Origin: Clostridia bacterium
GTDB taxonomy: Bacteria > Bacillota > Peptococcia > DRI-13 > UBA5745
NCBI GenBank assembly: GCA_018434325.1
Contig: JAHDPO010000021.1
Location: 1-64,000 of the forward strand
Length of the DNA: 64,000 nucleotides
Direction: 5' to 3'
Below are positions 50,815-63,370 of this stretch, piece by piece (within the stretch, counting starts at the first letter, position 1; each line of letters starts with the position of its first letter). The notes under the pieces are model-generated. The model was not told the DNA's origin and did not search any database. It worked only from the letters and a program-made list of their open reading frames with translations. The position numbers and the translations under genes were made by a program.

Positions 50815-51327
50815 ATGGAAAACAAAATTATGGGTCAAGCGGCTAAGGACTATGCCATTGAAAATTTTAAAAACGGTTTAAATTGCGCGGAAAGCGTTTA
50901 TGACGGTCTGCTTCGGGCCGGCGCCTTGGAGGGCGTGGCTCCGGAAACCGTAGCTATGGTTCTTGGCTTCGGCGGCGGCGTCGGCATGGCCGGCTGCCTC
51001 TGCGGCGCCCTGGCCGCTGCAGTCATCGCCAATGGCGCGATCTACGGCCGGCCCGATCCCTATGCCGTACCGGCGGAGAACCGGGGCGGCGAAATCGCTG
51101 AAAAGTATTATGCCCGTTACAACAACCTGCTCTGGGACTTCGCCGAAGCCAACGGCAGCCCGCTCTGCAAGGAAATATGCAGTAAGTATGAGGATTTCCA
51201 CGGCAAAGAACGCAAAGTAGGCTGTTTGAAGCTGATTGGGGCTACAGCCGAACTGGCCTGCCGTTATCTGGAGATGACGCCGGAAGAGGCCGCAAAGCTG
51301 CCCTACCGTGAAAAGGTGGGGACTTAG
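50815..51327 (+). CDS. C_GCAxxG_C_C family protein
   Basis: 170 aa. The family is named from its cysteine pattern, here NCAESVYDGLL, then GGVGMAGCLCGALAAAVIA, LCKEICSKY and GCLKLIGATAELACRY. Such small proteins are thought to bind iron-sulfur or act in redox, and often lie near transporters or oxidoreductases. The Gly-rich helix with CxC (GCLCGA) is typical. Ribosome site GGGAGA. It ends the TRAP-enolase operon, before the terminator at 51376. The exact task is unknown. Confidence 0.85.
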   Translation: MENKIMGQAAKDYAIENFKNGLNCAESVYDGLLRAGALEGVAPETVAMVLGFGGGVGMAGCLCGALAAAVIANGAIYGRPDPYAVPAENRGGEIAEKYYARYNNLLWDFAEANGSPLCKEICSKYEDFHGKERKVGCLKLIGATAELACRYLEMTPEEAAKLPYREKVGT

Positions 51328-51431: not shown

Positions 51432-51827
51432 TTAGCTTTCTATATTTAGTTCATCTTTGATCAGCCAAAGATATCTTTCTTTTTTCTTCTCCGGCAGCTT
51501 TTCCCAAAGGGCCAGCATTTCTTTGGTCTTACCATCGCTCTTGTACATGAAATAGCCCATGATCTCATTGAATGTATCCGTATCATTCTCCAGAAAATAT
51601 CGAGGGATCTGGTAAGTAACGGGATGCATCTCGTCGGAAGCTCCCAGCAAATAGTCTGTGGTGGTGTTCAGCTCTTTGGCCAGCTTGACTTTATTTTCAT
51701 CGATAGGATTGCTCTCATCGTTTTCATATTTTGAAATCATGCCGGCAGAAACATTGATCAGGGAAGCCAACTCCGCCTGTGACATTCCCGCCTCGTCCCT
51801 CAATGCCTTTAAACGCTTCCCAATCAT
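51432..51827 (-). CDS. XRE family helix-turn-helix regulator
   Basis: 131 aa. N-terminal Cro/CI-type HTH at residues 1-62: 'LKALRDEAGMSQAELASLIN', VSAGMISKYENDESNPI, then KLAKELNTTTDYLLG. The C-terminal 70 residues are unlike a known ligand domain (FLENDTDTFNEIMGYFMYK). The gene is next to the agr-like locus, but no direct link is visible. The 200-base upstream region is very AT-rich and includes TTATCT/AGATAA inverted copies (51893 and about 51935), candidate autoregulatory sites. May govern the agr genes or a stress response. Confidence 0.87.
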   Translation of the reverse strand: MIGKRLKALRDEAGMSQAELASLINVSAGMISKYENDESNPIDENKVKLAKELNTTTDYLLGASDEMHPVTYQIPRYFLENDTDTFNEIMGYFMYKSDGKTKEMLALWEKLPEKKKERYLWLIKDELNIES

Positions 51828-51994
51828 TTGAACCCTCCCAATACGCCGGCCTGGCAGCTACCTCCATTATAATAGTTCAAATTAAGGAAATGTTATCTAA
51901 TTCTGACTATTTTAATTCACCGATATTACTTATAAGATAATTTATTCTTATTACTATACTTATATGCTTGAAAATATCGTATTAGTAATATATA

Positions 51995-52024
51995 ATAAAA
52001 AGGCACCCGGCTGGGCGGGTGCTT
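51995..52024 (-). terminator. Terminator of the agrBD-like transcript
   Basis: On the minus strand GCACCCG, loop CCCAGC, CGGGTGC then CTTTTTATT. It lies 11 bases after the agrD stop codon. Confidence 0.8.
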
Positions 52025-52034
52025 AATGGTGGTA

Positions 52035-52178
52035 TTACTTGTCTTTCAATTTGTCCGGGACCGGCGGTTGAAACAAATGTGTTTTGCAGAAGAACCCAGC
52101 TGTGCGACGGGCATTTGTTTGTGCTAAGGTTGAGGCTTGCCGCAGCAGGAAGGGTATATTCTTCGAAACCTGTTTCAT
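52035..52178 (-). CDS. agrD: AgrD-like cyclic autoinducer peptide precursor
   Basis: 47 aa, directly after agrB. The ATG at 52178 has GGAG eight bases upstream (AGGAAAGGAGTGAAGCAG). The N-terminal part is a short amphipathic helix (KNIPFLLRQASTLAQ). A single Cys at residue 31 begins a five-residue ring candidate C-K-T-H-L. The remainder FQPPVPDKLKDK fits the family tail pattern (Q-P-x-x-P-x-x-L, as in clostridial AgrD). AgrB should cut after the ring and form a thiolactone. The mature peptide would be short and end in CKTHL. The call rests on position, size and tail; the exact N-terminal cut is unknown. Confidence 0.85.
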   Translation of the reverse strand: MKQVSKNIPFLLRQASTLAQTNARRTAGFFCKTHLFQPPVPDKLKDK

Positions 52179-52195
52179 TCTGCTTCACTCCTTTC

Positions 52196-52780
52196 CTAGG
52201 GATTATTGTCAGGTGATGGGACCAGCAGGGACAGCGCAGCTGTTGCCGCGCCCATACTTCCGCAAAGAGAAACCCCCGCCGCCCATGTCCCGGCAATTTT
52301 ATAGGCCGAAAAGATCACAATGGTCTGGCTCAGCGAAACACAGATTCCGATTACTCGGAATTTTTTTCTCTTTTGCATACCGGCGGGGGCATTAGGATGA
52401 ATTACCGGCCCCCGCCAAATGACCAGGAGCAGGGCCAGCAAGGAGAGAAGGAAAGCCAAAGGCCAAAGCCAGGTTTGGGGCAGCAGGCGAGAGCTTTGGG
52501 CCGCGGCAAAAGCCATTAGAGTGAAAATAAGCAAGCAGCTGCCGTGGGTTTTGGCATGGGCTCCGCCGATATTGGGTTTCAGCAGACAAAAGAAGAGCTC
52601 ATAACAAAAAATCTGCGGCAATATATCGAAAGCAAGCCCCAAAAACAGCAGGATCAGATTCTGCTCCAGGCCGGCCAGCAAGTCAAAGAGGCCGTATGCC
52701 AGCACCTCTTCGTCTTCGGCGCCGGCAGCGCCGCGTTTAATAAGATAACGGCTGATTTTTATGGCCAGCATATAGGTCAA
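52196..52780 (-). CDS. agrB: AgrB-like accessory gene regulator protease/transporter
   Basis: 194 aa. TTG start at 52780 with GGAGGAG five bases upstream; the ATG at 52771 is further off. Five or six membrane helices. Catalytic pair His75 and Cys82 in GGAHAKTHGSC, the same spacing of seven as in staphylococcal AgrB (H77, C84). It cleaves the AgrD precursor's tail and cyclises the peptide. The C-terminal part carries the conserved KFRVIGIC basic stretch and an Ala/Ser-rich last helix. The small agrD gene begins 18 bases downstream. Divergent from the response regulator at 52896. Confidence 0.92.
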   Translation of the reverse strand: MTYMLAIKISRYLIKRGAAGAEDEEVLAYGLFDLLAGLEQNLILLFLGLAFDILPQIFCYELFFCLLKPNIGGAHAKTHGSCLLIFTLMAFAAAQSSRLLPQTWLWPLAFLLSLLALLLVIWRGPVIHPNAPAGMQKRKKFRVIGICVSLSQTIVIFSAYKIAGTWAAGVSLCGSMGAATAALSLLVPSPDNNP

Positions 52781-52895
52781 GGTAACTCCTCCGTTTGTGT
52801 CCCTGATCTTTGCTTCGGGGGTTTTACACCCACTATAGCCGGAATAATCCTGCTTAAGCTAACCACGTCGCGGATAGGAGAGGAAATGTAGTGAA

Positions 52896-53639
52896 ATGTC
52901 CGACCAAAAAAATAAAGCCTCTTCTTGGGGCTGTGAAAAAGGAATAAGACGTATTGCTTTATGTGACGACGATCCCCTCTTCTTGGAACAAATGAGCCAA
53001 TTGGTTAAAGAATATCTGCCGGAACAAGGGGAGGTGCGCTGTTTTACCAATGGCCTGGATTTGATCCGGCTTTGTGAAAAGGAGCCTCCGCATCTGATTT
53101 TCCTGGACATCCAGATGCCGGGTCTGGACGGACTCCATACGGCCCGTGAACTGCGGAAACTTCATCCTTTTTTGACTATCGTCATCGTTACCCACTATCG
53201 GGAATTCGCTCTGCAAGGCTATGATATCCGGGCTTTCGACTATTTGGTTAAGCCCATATCCCCGCAAAAGGTCAAGCGGATTATAGACGAGCTGTACCTG
53301 CTGCCTTTTACAAAAGAAAGGCATTTTTTTATCTTCAATAAAACGAAGATTTTCCTGCCGCCTCTGGATTCGCTGTTTTATTTTGAAAGCTGCGGCCGCC
53401 TGATCAAGGCCTATCCTTATCAAGGCTGCTATAGCTGGTACGGCAAGCTGGAGGAGCTGGAAAATCAGCTGCCCCGGCAATTTGTTAAAATCCACCGTTC
53501 CTTCATCGTCAATCTTCGCTGGATCAAAGAAATCGACAAGTCCCGGCGCCAACTGATTCTGGCTAACGGCCGGCTGCTGCCCGTCAGCAAAAGCCTTTAC
53601 AACAAGCTGCTGAAAGAGGTGGAAGGGTGGAGCTATTGA
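52896..53639 (+). CDS. LytTR response regulator (AgrA-like)
   Basis: 247 aa. ATG at 52896, preceded by GAGAGGA. Receiver domain with acidic pocket D24-D26 (ALCDDDP), phospho-acceptor D71 in IFLDIQMPG, Thr/Ser in IVIVTHYRE and Lys in DYLVKP. The LytTR DNA-binding domain (residues about 145-245) carries 'FVKIHRSFIVNLRWIKEIDK'. It should bind agr-type promoters when phosphorylated by the kinase encoded next (13-base overlap). The first 16 residues are a short extra N-terminal tail. Confidence 0.92.
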   Translation: MSDQKNKASSWGCEKGIRRIALCDDDPLFLEQMSQLVKEYLPEQGEVRCFTNGLDLIRLCEKEPPHLIFLDIQMPGLDGLHTARELRKLHPFLTIVIVTHYREFALQGYDIRAFDYLVKPISPQKVKRIIDELYLLPFTKERHFFIFNKTKIFLPPLDSLFYFESCGRLIKAYPYQGCYSWYGKLEELENQLPRQFVKIHRSFIVNLRWIKEIDKSRRQLILANGRLLPVSKSLYNKLLKEVEGWSY

Positions 53640-54958
53640 TTGCGCTCATCGATTGTCTGATGATATTTTTTGACGCCCTTACTGCCTTCTTCCTGCTGGC
53701 TTCTTTGCTGCCCCGCCGGCGGCCGGGGAGAGGCTCTGTCCTCTGCTTTTTTCTGGGGCAAATCCTTTATCAGCTTTTTAACCGGCTGTATTGGCCCTCG
53801 GTCTATTGGCAGAGCCTTGCGTTCAGCTGGCTCATGGATTTATTAATGGCCCATGTCTTTTTTCAAGGGGGCCTGAAGCGAAAATCTTTGCTGATTGCCG
53901 TAACCTATACTGTTTTTACGGCCTGTGACGCCATTACCGTCATCATTATCTATTTAGCCCAGCCCTCCCTTTGGCCGCCGGCCGCTGCCCAGGATCTCAA
54001 GCTCAATATCCTGGTCTTTTTTTTCCGCTCTTTACTGCCATTAATGCTGGCCTTTTTCATCCGCAGCTTTTTTCGCAAAGAGGGCGAGCATAATCATTGG
54101 CTGATTTTCTTTGCCTTGACTCTCTATACCTCGCTGCTGCTGTTTCAGATGTTTCCCTTGGGAGACTTCACGGAAAAGCGGATTCTCTTGCTGGTTTTAG
54201 CCTGTTTTTTTGCTTTTTTGGTTATGCTGGCGGTGTTTTCTTATTTGTGTTTTCAAGATCATAAAAGCTTCAACGAAGAACGGCTGGATCTGCTGGAAAA
54301 ACTGAAGGCCTTTCAGGACCAGCATAACCGGGAGCTGAAGTTCTCTTTTGCTCAAATGGAGCATACCCTTCACGATGTCCGCAAGCATATCGGTTATTTG
54401 GAGCTGCTTTTTGCCGCCGGCAGGGAGGCCAGCATCCCTCTGTATATACAAAGTCTGCGGCAAAAGCTGGAGCCTCCTTTATTTACAGGTAATTTCACCG
54501 TAGACGCCGTAATCTTTCTGAAAAAACGGCAAGGAACGGAAATGGGTATTCCCCTCCAATCTTCAGGCACTTTGCCGGAAGATCTGCCCTGGCTGGACGC
54601 TGCCGATACGGTGGCCTTGCTGGGCAACGGCCTGGACAATGCTCTGGAAGAATACAGCCGCTTGCCGCGGCGAAATCCTTCCTTAGGCATTACCCTTACC
54701 TTTCTTTTTGATGAAGGCATATATTGTGAGATTGAAAACCCCATAGCCTCAAAACCTGTAGAAAAACAGCAAGGACCCTGGTTTTCCAGCCAAAAAGCGG
54801 GAAAGGGCCGGGGCCTCGGTATGGAGAGCATGCAGGCTGTCGTTGATAAATACGGCGGCCAGATGAGCACTTTCGTCAGCAGCGAGACTTTCCGCCTTTG
54901 TCTGTTCATTCCCAAGCCCCATCATACTAATCTGCAATTAAAAACTAAAGGTTTTTAA
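53627..54958 (+). CDS. AgrC-like membrane histidine kinase (GHKL type)
   Basis: 443 aa. GTG start inside the end of the regulator gene. Six or seven membrane helices (residues 1-215) form the peptide receptor, followed by a coiled region and a dimer helix with His249 in HDVRKHIGYLE. The GHKL ATPase has N-box NGLDNALEE and G-box GRGLGMESM. It senses the peptide made by AgrBD. Unusual: the last residues (TNLQLKTKGF) and the stop codon are coded by the palindromic element copy E (54924-54972), which therefore replaced or extended the native C-terminus. Confidence 0.92.
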   Translation: MELLIALIDCLMIFFDALTAFFLLASLLPRRRPGRGSVLCFFLGQILYQLFNRLYWPSVYWQSLAFSWLMDLLMAHVFFQGGLKRKSLLIAVTYTVFTACDAITVIIIYLAQPSLWPPAAAQDLKLNILVFFFRSLLPLMLAFFIRSFFRKEGEHNHWLIFFALTLYTSLLLFQMFPLGDFTEKRILLLVLACFFAFLVMLAVFSYLCFQDHKSFNEERLDLLEKLKAFQDQHNRELKFSFAQMEHTLHDVRKHIGYLELLFAAGREASIPLYIQSLRQKLEPPLFTGNFTVDAVIFLKKRQGTEMGIPLQSSGTLPEDLPWLDAADTVALLGNGLDNALEEYSRLPRRNPSLGITLTFLFDEGIYCEIENPIASKPVEKQQGPWFSSQKAGKGRGLGMESMQAVVDKYGGQMSTFVSSETFRLCLFIPKPHHTNLQLKTKGF

Positions 54959-54972
54959 TTGCAGATTAGTAT
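54924..54972 (-). repeat. One-arm 49-bp palindromic element, copy E
   Basis: Perfect 22-bp arms (ATACTAATCTGC + AATTAAAAAC) around loop TAAAG, then the exact complement. The arm is the same as the 25-base AT-rich arm of copy B, with the outer 12-bp stem conserved. This is a derivative with two of three arms missing. It codes the end of the agrC-like gene and may also act as its terminator. Relative to copy F the loop is reversed, so E and F are in opposite orientation. Confidence 0.9.
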
Positions 54973-62731: not shown

Positions 62732-63328
62732 ATGTTTTTAAATGATTTGCAATCGGAATGGGCTTTTTACGGCCGGCAGCTGGATGTGATCGGCCACCTT
62801 TATATCAGCCCGGCAGAACAGCCTGCCCGTTATCCGGACCTGCTGTTCTTTTGCTTATATACCGCCCGCCTGCTGGTGGATAAGAAATTGACCTTGTCCG
62901 CCGCCACCAATATTCAAAAGCAGCTGCGTTTGGGCCAGGGCCTGGAAAAGGCCGTCAATTGGGACGAAGACCGGCAATTTTCTTTACCGGCCAGAGTCAT
63001 CGAATATAGAGGCTATGCCAAAAGTGCTATCAGCTCCTCGCTGCTGTTTCGGGATAAGCTCCATTTTCGCTTCGGCTATATGGGTTTTGGCTTGTTTAGC
63101 AACGGCAAGCGTTTTGATTTTTGCGCCGGCGCTTCGGTTTTTGCCTTGCTGGAGACGATTTATAAGAAATACGACGGCAACCAGGAGGCCCTGGCCGTGC
63201 TGTGGAGCTGCGCCGAGGCCTTGGGAAATGAGGAGCTGGGCGTCAAGATCAATAAAGGCAATTGCCTGACCCGAGGGAAAGAAATTTATCAAAGCATTAC
63301 CGGCGACCAGTTTGCCGCTTTATACTAA
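62732..63328 (+). CDS. Hypothetical protein
   Basis: 198 aa, ATG with AAGGAG seven bases upstream. I do not recognise the family. It has no signal peptide or membrane helix. It contains several aromatic-rich stretches (ARYPDLLFFCLYTARLL), a 'SNGKRFDFCAGASVFALLE' segment and scattered Cys. It is probably a cytoplasmic globular protein. The stop codon TAA at 63326 is the TAA within the left end ATACTAATCTGC of copy F, so the last residues (ALY) may be set by the element. Next gene (63398) is a RelA/SpoT-type protein on the same strand; a functional link is possible. Confidence 0.6.
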   Translation: MFLNDLQSEWAFYGRQLDVIGHLYISPAEQPARYPDLLFFCLYTARLLVDKKLTLSAATNIQKQLRLGQGLEKAVNWDEDRQFSLPARVIEYRGYAKSAISSSLLFRDKLHFRFGYMGFGLFSNGKRFDFCAGASVFALLETIYKKYDGNQEALAVLWSCAEALGNEELGVKINKGNCLTRGKEIYQSITGDQFAALY

Positions 63329-63370
63329 TCTGCAATTAAAAACCTTTAGTTTTTAATTGCAGATTAGTAT
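63322..63370 (+). repeat. One-arm 49-bp palindromic element, copy F
   Basis: ATACTAATCTGC + AATTAAAAAC, loop CTTTA, then the exact complement to 63370. Same as copy E except that the loop is reversed, so it is the same element in the opposite orientation. It begins in the last codons of the hypothetical gene and provides its stop codon. It ends 27 bases before the next start codon. Confidence 0.9.

Follow-up and report, generated by a model that had tools for sequence, protein, structure and literature searches.

An uncultured clostridium carries a complete and apparently intact agr-type signalling locus, which is conserved in a second genome of the same genus. The locus belongs to a familiar type of system, whose principle is unchanged, and has an unusual back-to-back layout and an unusually basic ring. 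We interpret it, with high confidence, as an agr-type peptide quorum-sensing locus in which a signal derived from AgrD and cyclised by AgrB is read by a GHKL kinase/LytTR regulator pair.

Gene content and conservation of the locus

An open reading frame (ORF) check of the 64-kb window, meaning the whole stretch of DNA analysed, found all four genes where a preliminary description had placed them and on the same strands (Table 1), with agrB and a 47-residue AgrD on the minus strand and the LytTR regulator and GHKL kinase on the plus strand. The earlier reading, that the locus is of agr type, complete and divided between two divergent halves, was upheld, this layout occurring in two of the 124 sampled loci, both in the host genus. 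Gene content and order, active-site residues, the terminator, second-genome conservation and tree position are direct observations.

Table 1 Features of the agr-type locus and its control elements
Feature	Position	Strand	Description
Sigma-70-like promoter	51968..51996	+	TTGAAA-17-TATAAT, antisense into agrD; lead only
Rho-independent terminator of agrBD	52003..52022	-	GCACCCG-CCCAGC-CGGGTGC then T-run; z -3.7
agrD	52035..52178	-	47 aa; candidate ring CKTHL (Cys31), tail FQPPVPDKLKDK; custom AgrD profile
agrB	52196..52780	-	194 aa; TTG start, GGAGG upstream; PF04647; putative membrane endopeptidase processing/cyclising AgrD
Divergent control region agrB/agrA	52781..52895	.	115 nt; central CTATAG
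agrA-like response regulator	52896..53639	+	247 aa; receiver and LytTR domains; PF00072 78 bits, PF04397 68 bits
agrC-like GHKL sensor kinase	53627..54958	+	443 aa; GTG start inside end of agrA; PF14501 42.8 bits

The comparison set consisted of about 120 AgrB neighbourhoods containing 124 AgrB genes; relatives supplied 40 of the neighbourhoods and a phylum-wide draw supplied 80. Loci were typed by the order in which AgrB, kinase and regulator occur, and the survey was confined to the host phylum. In the same-genus genome (L033/L034), the four-gene set, its layout and its junctions are identical, the locus is ~86% identical in sequence and the flanks are collinear for ~10 kb. The host genome holds one AgrB above the family cut-off, namely that of the locus, and no related AgrB was found in phage records.

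The agrB product scored 93.9 bits against PF04647 (Pfam AgrB; E=1e-26), above the cut-off of 23, and its gene has a strong ribosome-binding site. Its catalytic His75 and Cys82, seven residues apart within GGAHAKTHGSC, are intact as first described. Between the two genomes, AgrB is 83% identical, with 16% of codons changed. A search by sequence returned no close solved structure for AgrB or AgrC.

Receptor half and its pairing with the signal half

Both domains of the regulator, Response_reg (PF00072) and LytTR (PF04397), were above cut-off, and the phospho-acceptor Asp is placed by motif at about residue 71, in LIFLDIQMPG. The kinase has at least five hydrophobic segments in residues 1-204 according to hydropathy, followed by an HATPase_c_5 GHKL domain in which the H-box LHDVRKH (His at about residue 249) and the GNGLDNALEE and GRGLGM motifs are intact; 20% of its codons are changed in the same-genus genome. 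A 13-nt overlap between agrA and agrC makes their co-transcription probable.

A near-perfect 47-nt palindrome lies at the end of agrC (54926-54972) and recurs at 63324-63368, with one arm near 120-139. It is a member of a dispersed family: its 19-nt arm has 41 matches in the genome at up to two mismatches, several of them at contig ends, and the reversed control has none. The same-genus AgrC stops about ten residues earlier and lacks the palindrome, so an insertion seems to have lengthened AgrC in the host genome. Rfam matches on the palindrome were of microRNA type only and below the gathering score, and were rejected as fold artefacts.

Adjacency of the two halves could be non-functional, with AgrBD forming a working signal generator and the adjoining kinase and regulator answering another signal. 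AgrBD modules can stand alone, since 40 of the 124 sampled AgrB genes have no detected kinase/regulator pair nearby, and the sensor part of AgrC, for which there is no solved relative, is too divergent to reveal the ligand class by sequence. We nevertheless regard such a separation as quite unlikely: the same four-gene neighbourhood is present in the second genome, the operons of the closest AgrB relatives encode kinases and regulators of these families, and the best matches of the kinase outside the genus are mostly those A-C-B-D loci. The regulator itself counts against the preferred reading of a matched signal and receptor, in that its best matches outside the genus are C-B-D-A loci and not A-C-B-D loci.

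Identification of the signal precursor

The short ORF beside agrB begins 17 nt past that gene, has a strong ribosome-binding site (GGAAAGGAG) and encodes the peptide FFCKTHLFQPPVP, which fits the pattern of Cys or Ser plus four residues and an x-[QE]-P-x-x-P tail (CKTHL-FQPPVP). The preliminary description had given a candidate C-K-T-H-L ring and a tail of the form Q-P-x-x-P-x-x-L. Read as C-K-T-H-L and F-Q-P-P-V-P-D-K-L, ring and tail match the corresponding segments of related AgrDs in a gapless alignment.

The preliminary description had suggested comparison with AgrD models and would have counted a missing match, together with the lack of a transcript across 52035-52178, against its proposal. 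The comparison with models came out divided. Curated models gave no support, because the peptide scored 12.0 bits against TIGR04223, below the cut-off of 19, had no match in a Pfam search and was not returned by a whole-genome search with TIGR04223. Profiles from relatives did recognise it: a profile of 22 AgrDs encoded beside related AgrBs placed the ORF at the top of the 809 in the window (E=0.0031), as did one of nine AgrDs from its own AgrB clade (E=2.6e-4). In our assessment, this family-specific evidence outweighs the sub-threshold curated score. No named cultured organism was found to have the peptide.

The leader of the candidate AgrD is atypical. It is strongly amphipathic (moment 0.55) yet poorly hydrophobic, with a best 15-residue mean of 0.36 compared with 1.4-2.6 in 22 relatives, and so falls outside their range. 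This polar leader and the sub-threshold model scores would fit an ORF that is no AgrB substrate, being either a chance ORF or a different peptide. We consider this very improbable given its first rank with two profiles, the strong ribosome-binding site directly 3' of agrB and the tail motif common to the AgrDs of the nearest relatives. The frame is also intact in a genome ~86% identical across the locus, where agrD has a TTG start and the protein is nearly unchanged: 44 of 47 residues are identical, all three substitutions fall within the first eight residues and the peptide is unchanged from residue 9 on, compared with codon changes of 16% in AgrB and 20% in AgrC. Synonymous constraint in agrD (2 of 21 four-fold sites changed versus 30% elsewhere) was considered as a sign of an RNA function and discarded, because other genes have 120-nt stretches without any change and because shuffled copies of the agrD RNA fold just as well.

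Ring and tail chemistry

As a putative signal precursor, the 47-residue AgrD was compared with other members of a set of 106 candidate AgrDs. Lys, Arg or His occurs in 20 of the 106 ring candidates, and two basic or His residues were found in CKTHL and in one doubtful extraction (L163), which leaves CKTHL as the only credible case. The ring is thus unusually basic. The preliminary remark that the charged residues K and H set it apart from the hydrophobic staphylococcal ring is right in degree, because rings that end in a single His are common.

The QPPVP tail is present in four of the 106 candidates, two of the host genus and those adjoining the AgrBs of L037 and L042, which lie closest in the tree to those of the host genus. 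Downstream of the AgrB genes of these two loci (AgrB at 5079-5669 in L037 and at 4959-5561 in L042) lie AgrDs MSRDDFYQPPVP and MSRLGFYQPPVP, with Ser at the ring-closing position. Their rings, SRDDF and SRLGF, thus have Ser in place of Cys and, like CKTHL, a basic second residue, a pattern that suggests a lactone/thiolactone switch within one small AgrB clade.

Gene order and origin of the divergent layout

Within the phylum sample, the divergent layout is genus-specific, its two occurrences being the host locus and its same-genus counterpart. An A-C-B order in one direction was found in nine of the 124 AgrB genes and a C-B-A order in about 20. In the AgrB tree, the host genus falls within a 12-member group (support 100/95) whose members with a detected pair are all A-C-B, save the two divergent ones. 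The sister pair is L037/L042 (88/85, a fork that is not strong), and a long stem branch (2.2) leads to the host genus.

The position of A before C had initially been described as unusual, a claim we reject: almost every one of the nearest AgrB relatives is among the nine other loci of A-C-B order, and C. difficile agr2 has the order agrACDB (PMC3754575). This order thus appears to be inherited and ordinary for the AgrB clade, with the split as the new part. Because the tree nests the host locus among A-C-B-D operons (100/95), the simplest reading is that the BD half of an ancestral A-C-B-D operon was probably inverted. Although both genomes are draft assemblies, an assembly artefact is exceedingly improbable as a source of the split, since the separate same-genus assembly has the same junctions and ~10 kb of collinear flank.

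Control region, terminator and flanking genes

Both promoters must lie within the 115 nt that separate agrB from agrA. The central CTATAG palindrome of this region is kept in the same-genus genome and could act as a -10 element on both strands. A scan for LytTR boxes across 52771-52910 gave no convincing box, a result that counts against the preferred reading of the locus; the same-genus genome lacks the one perfect half-site. The agrBD terminator hairpin and its T-run are identical in the two genomes. Rfam returned no RNAIII-like element at the locus.

Past this terminator, the TTGAAA-17-TATAAT sequence is the sole 11/12 sigma-70-type match in the window, a score reached by shuffled intergenic copies in 1% of cases, and the same-genus genome has both of its hexamers without change, as well as a hairpin and T-run inside agrB (52342-52363, +). 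This conserved promoter might drive a cis-antisense RNA that covers agrD and reaches into the 3' end of agrB, perhaps ending near that hairpin or running into agrA-agrC in the manner of an excludon, which would make signal production and receptor expression mutually exclusive or switch-like. Chance hairpins of this kind are common, and we therefore treat the antisense RNA as a lead, and an unlikely one.

On the same strand as agrBD and following it, a gene at 51432-51827 (-) encodes a Cro/CI-type HTH regulator, and the 66-nt stretch upstream of this gene is nearly unchanged between the host and same-genus genomes. Also near the locus is a gene for a C_GCAxxG_C_C redox protein (50815-51327), which is missing from the otherwise collinear same-genus contig.

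Discussion

By homology with agr, we propose that the Cys/His endopeptidase AgrB would cut AgrD at its C-terminal tail, FQPPVPDKLKDK, and that the product would be cyclised through a thiolactone between Cys31 and Leu35, giving a five-residue C-K-T-H-L ring with a short N-terminal tail. Once exported, the cyclic peptide would bind to the GHKL kinase at its membrane part, and the kinase would then phosphorylate the LytTR regulator. The regulator would in turn act as an activator at the divergent promoter region that the two halves share and at other targets. We infer the processing, the ring, the receptor pairing, the autoinduction and the targets from this analogy.

Known systems share parts of this arrangement. 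Staphylococcus aureus agr (agrBDCA) has the same four functions, the AgrB His/Cys pair and a five-residue thiolactone ring of the kind expected in the host, but it is a single B-D-C-A operon and its ring is hydrophobic. C. difficile agr2 likewise has A before C and combines a LytTR regulator, a GHKL kinase, AgrB and AgrD (PMC3754575); it runs in a single direction with D before B, whereas in the host B precedes D and BD lies opposite AC. In C. acetobutylicum, agrBD and agrCA are predicted to be two transcription units (PMC3754575), giving the signal half and the receptor half separate transcripts as in the host, although C precedes A in its receptor half. The A-C-B-D relatives (L037, L042, L035, L036, L055, L040, L056 and L061) are alike in gene content, A-C order, D right after B and AgrB clade (100/95), and differ in having all genes in one direction and hydrophobic AgrD leaders. 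L037 and L042 additionally share the host's QPPVP tail and basic second ring residue and differ from it in the Ser at the ring-closing position.

Within one AgrB clade, the agr genes have changed their order but remained together as a set of four. The locus adds a candidate pheromone of unusual chemistry, and its layout would allow the receptor half to be controlled apart from the signal half, a finding that bears on diversity within the known agr system and not on its principle.
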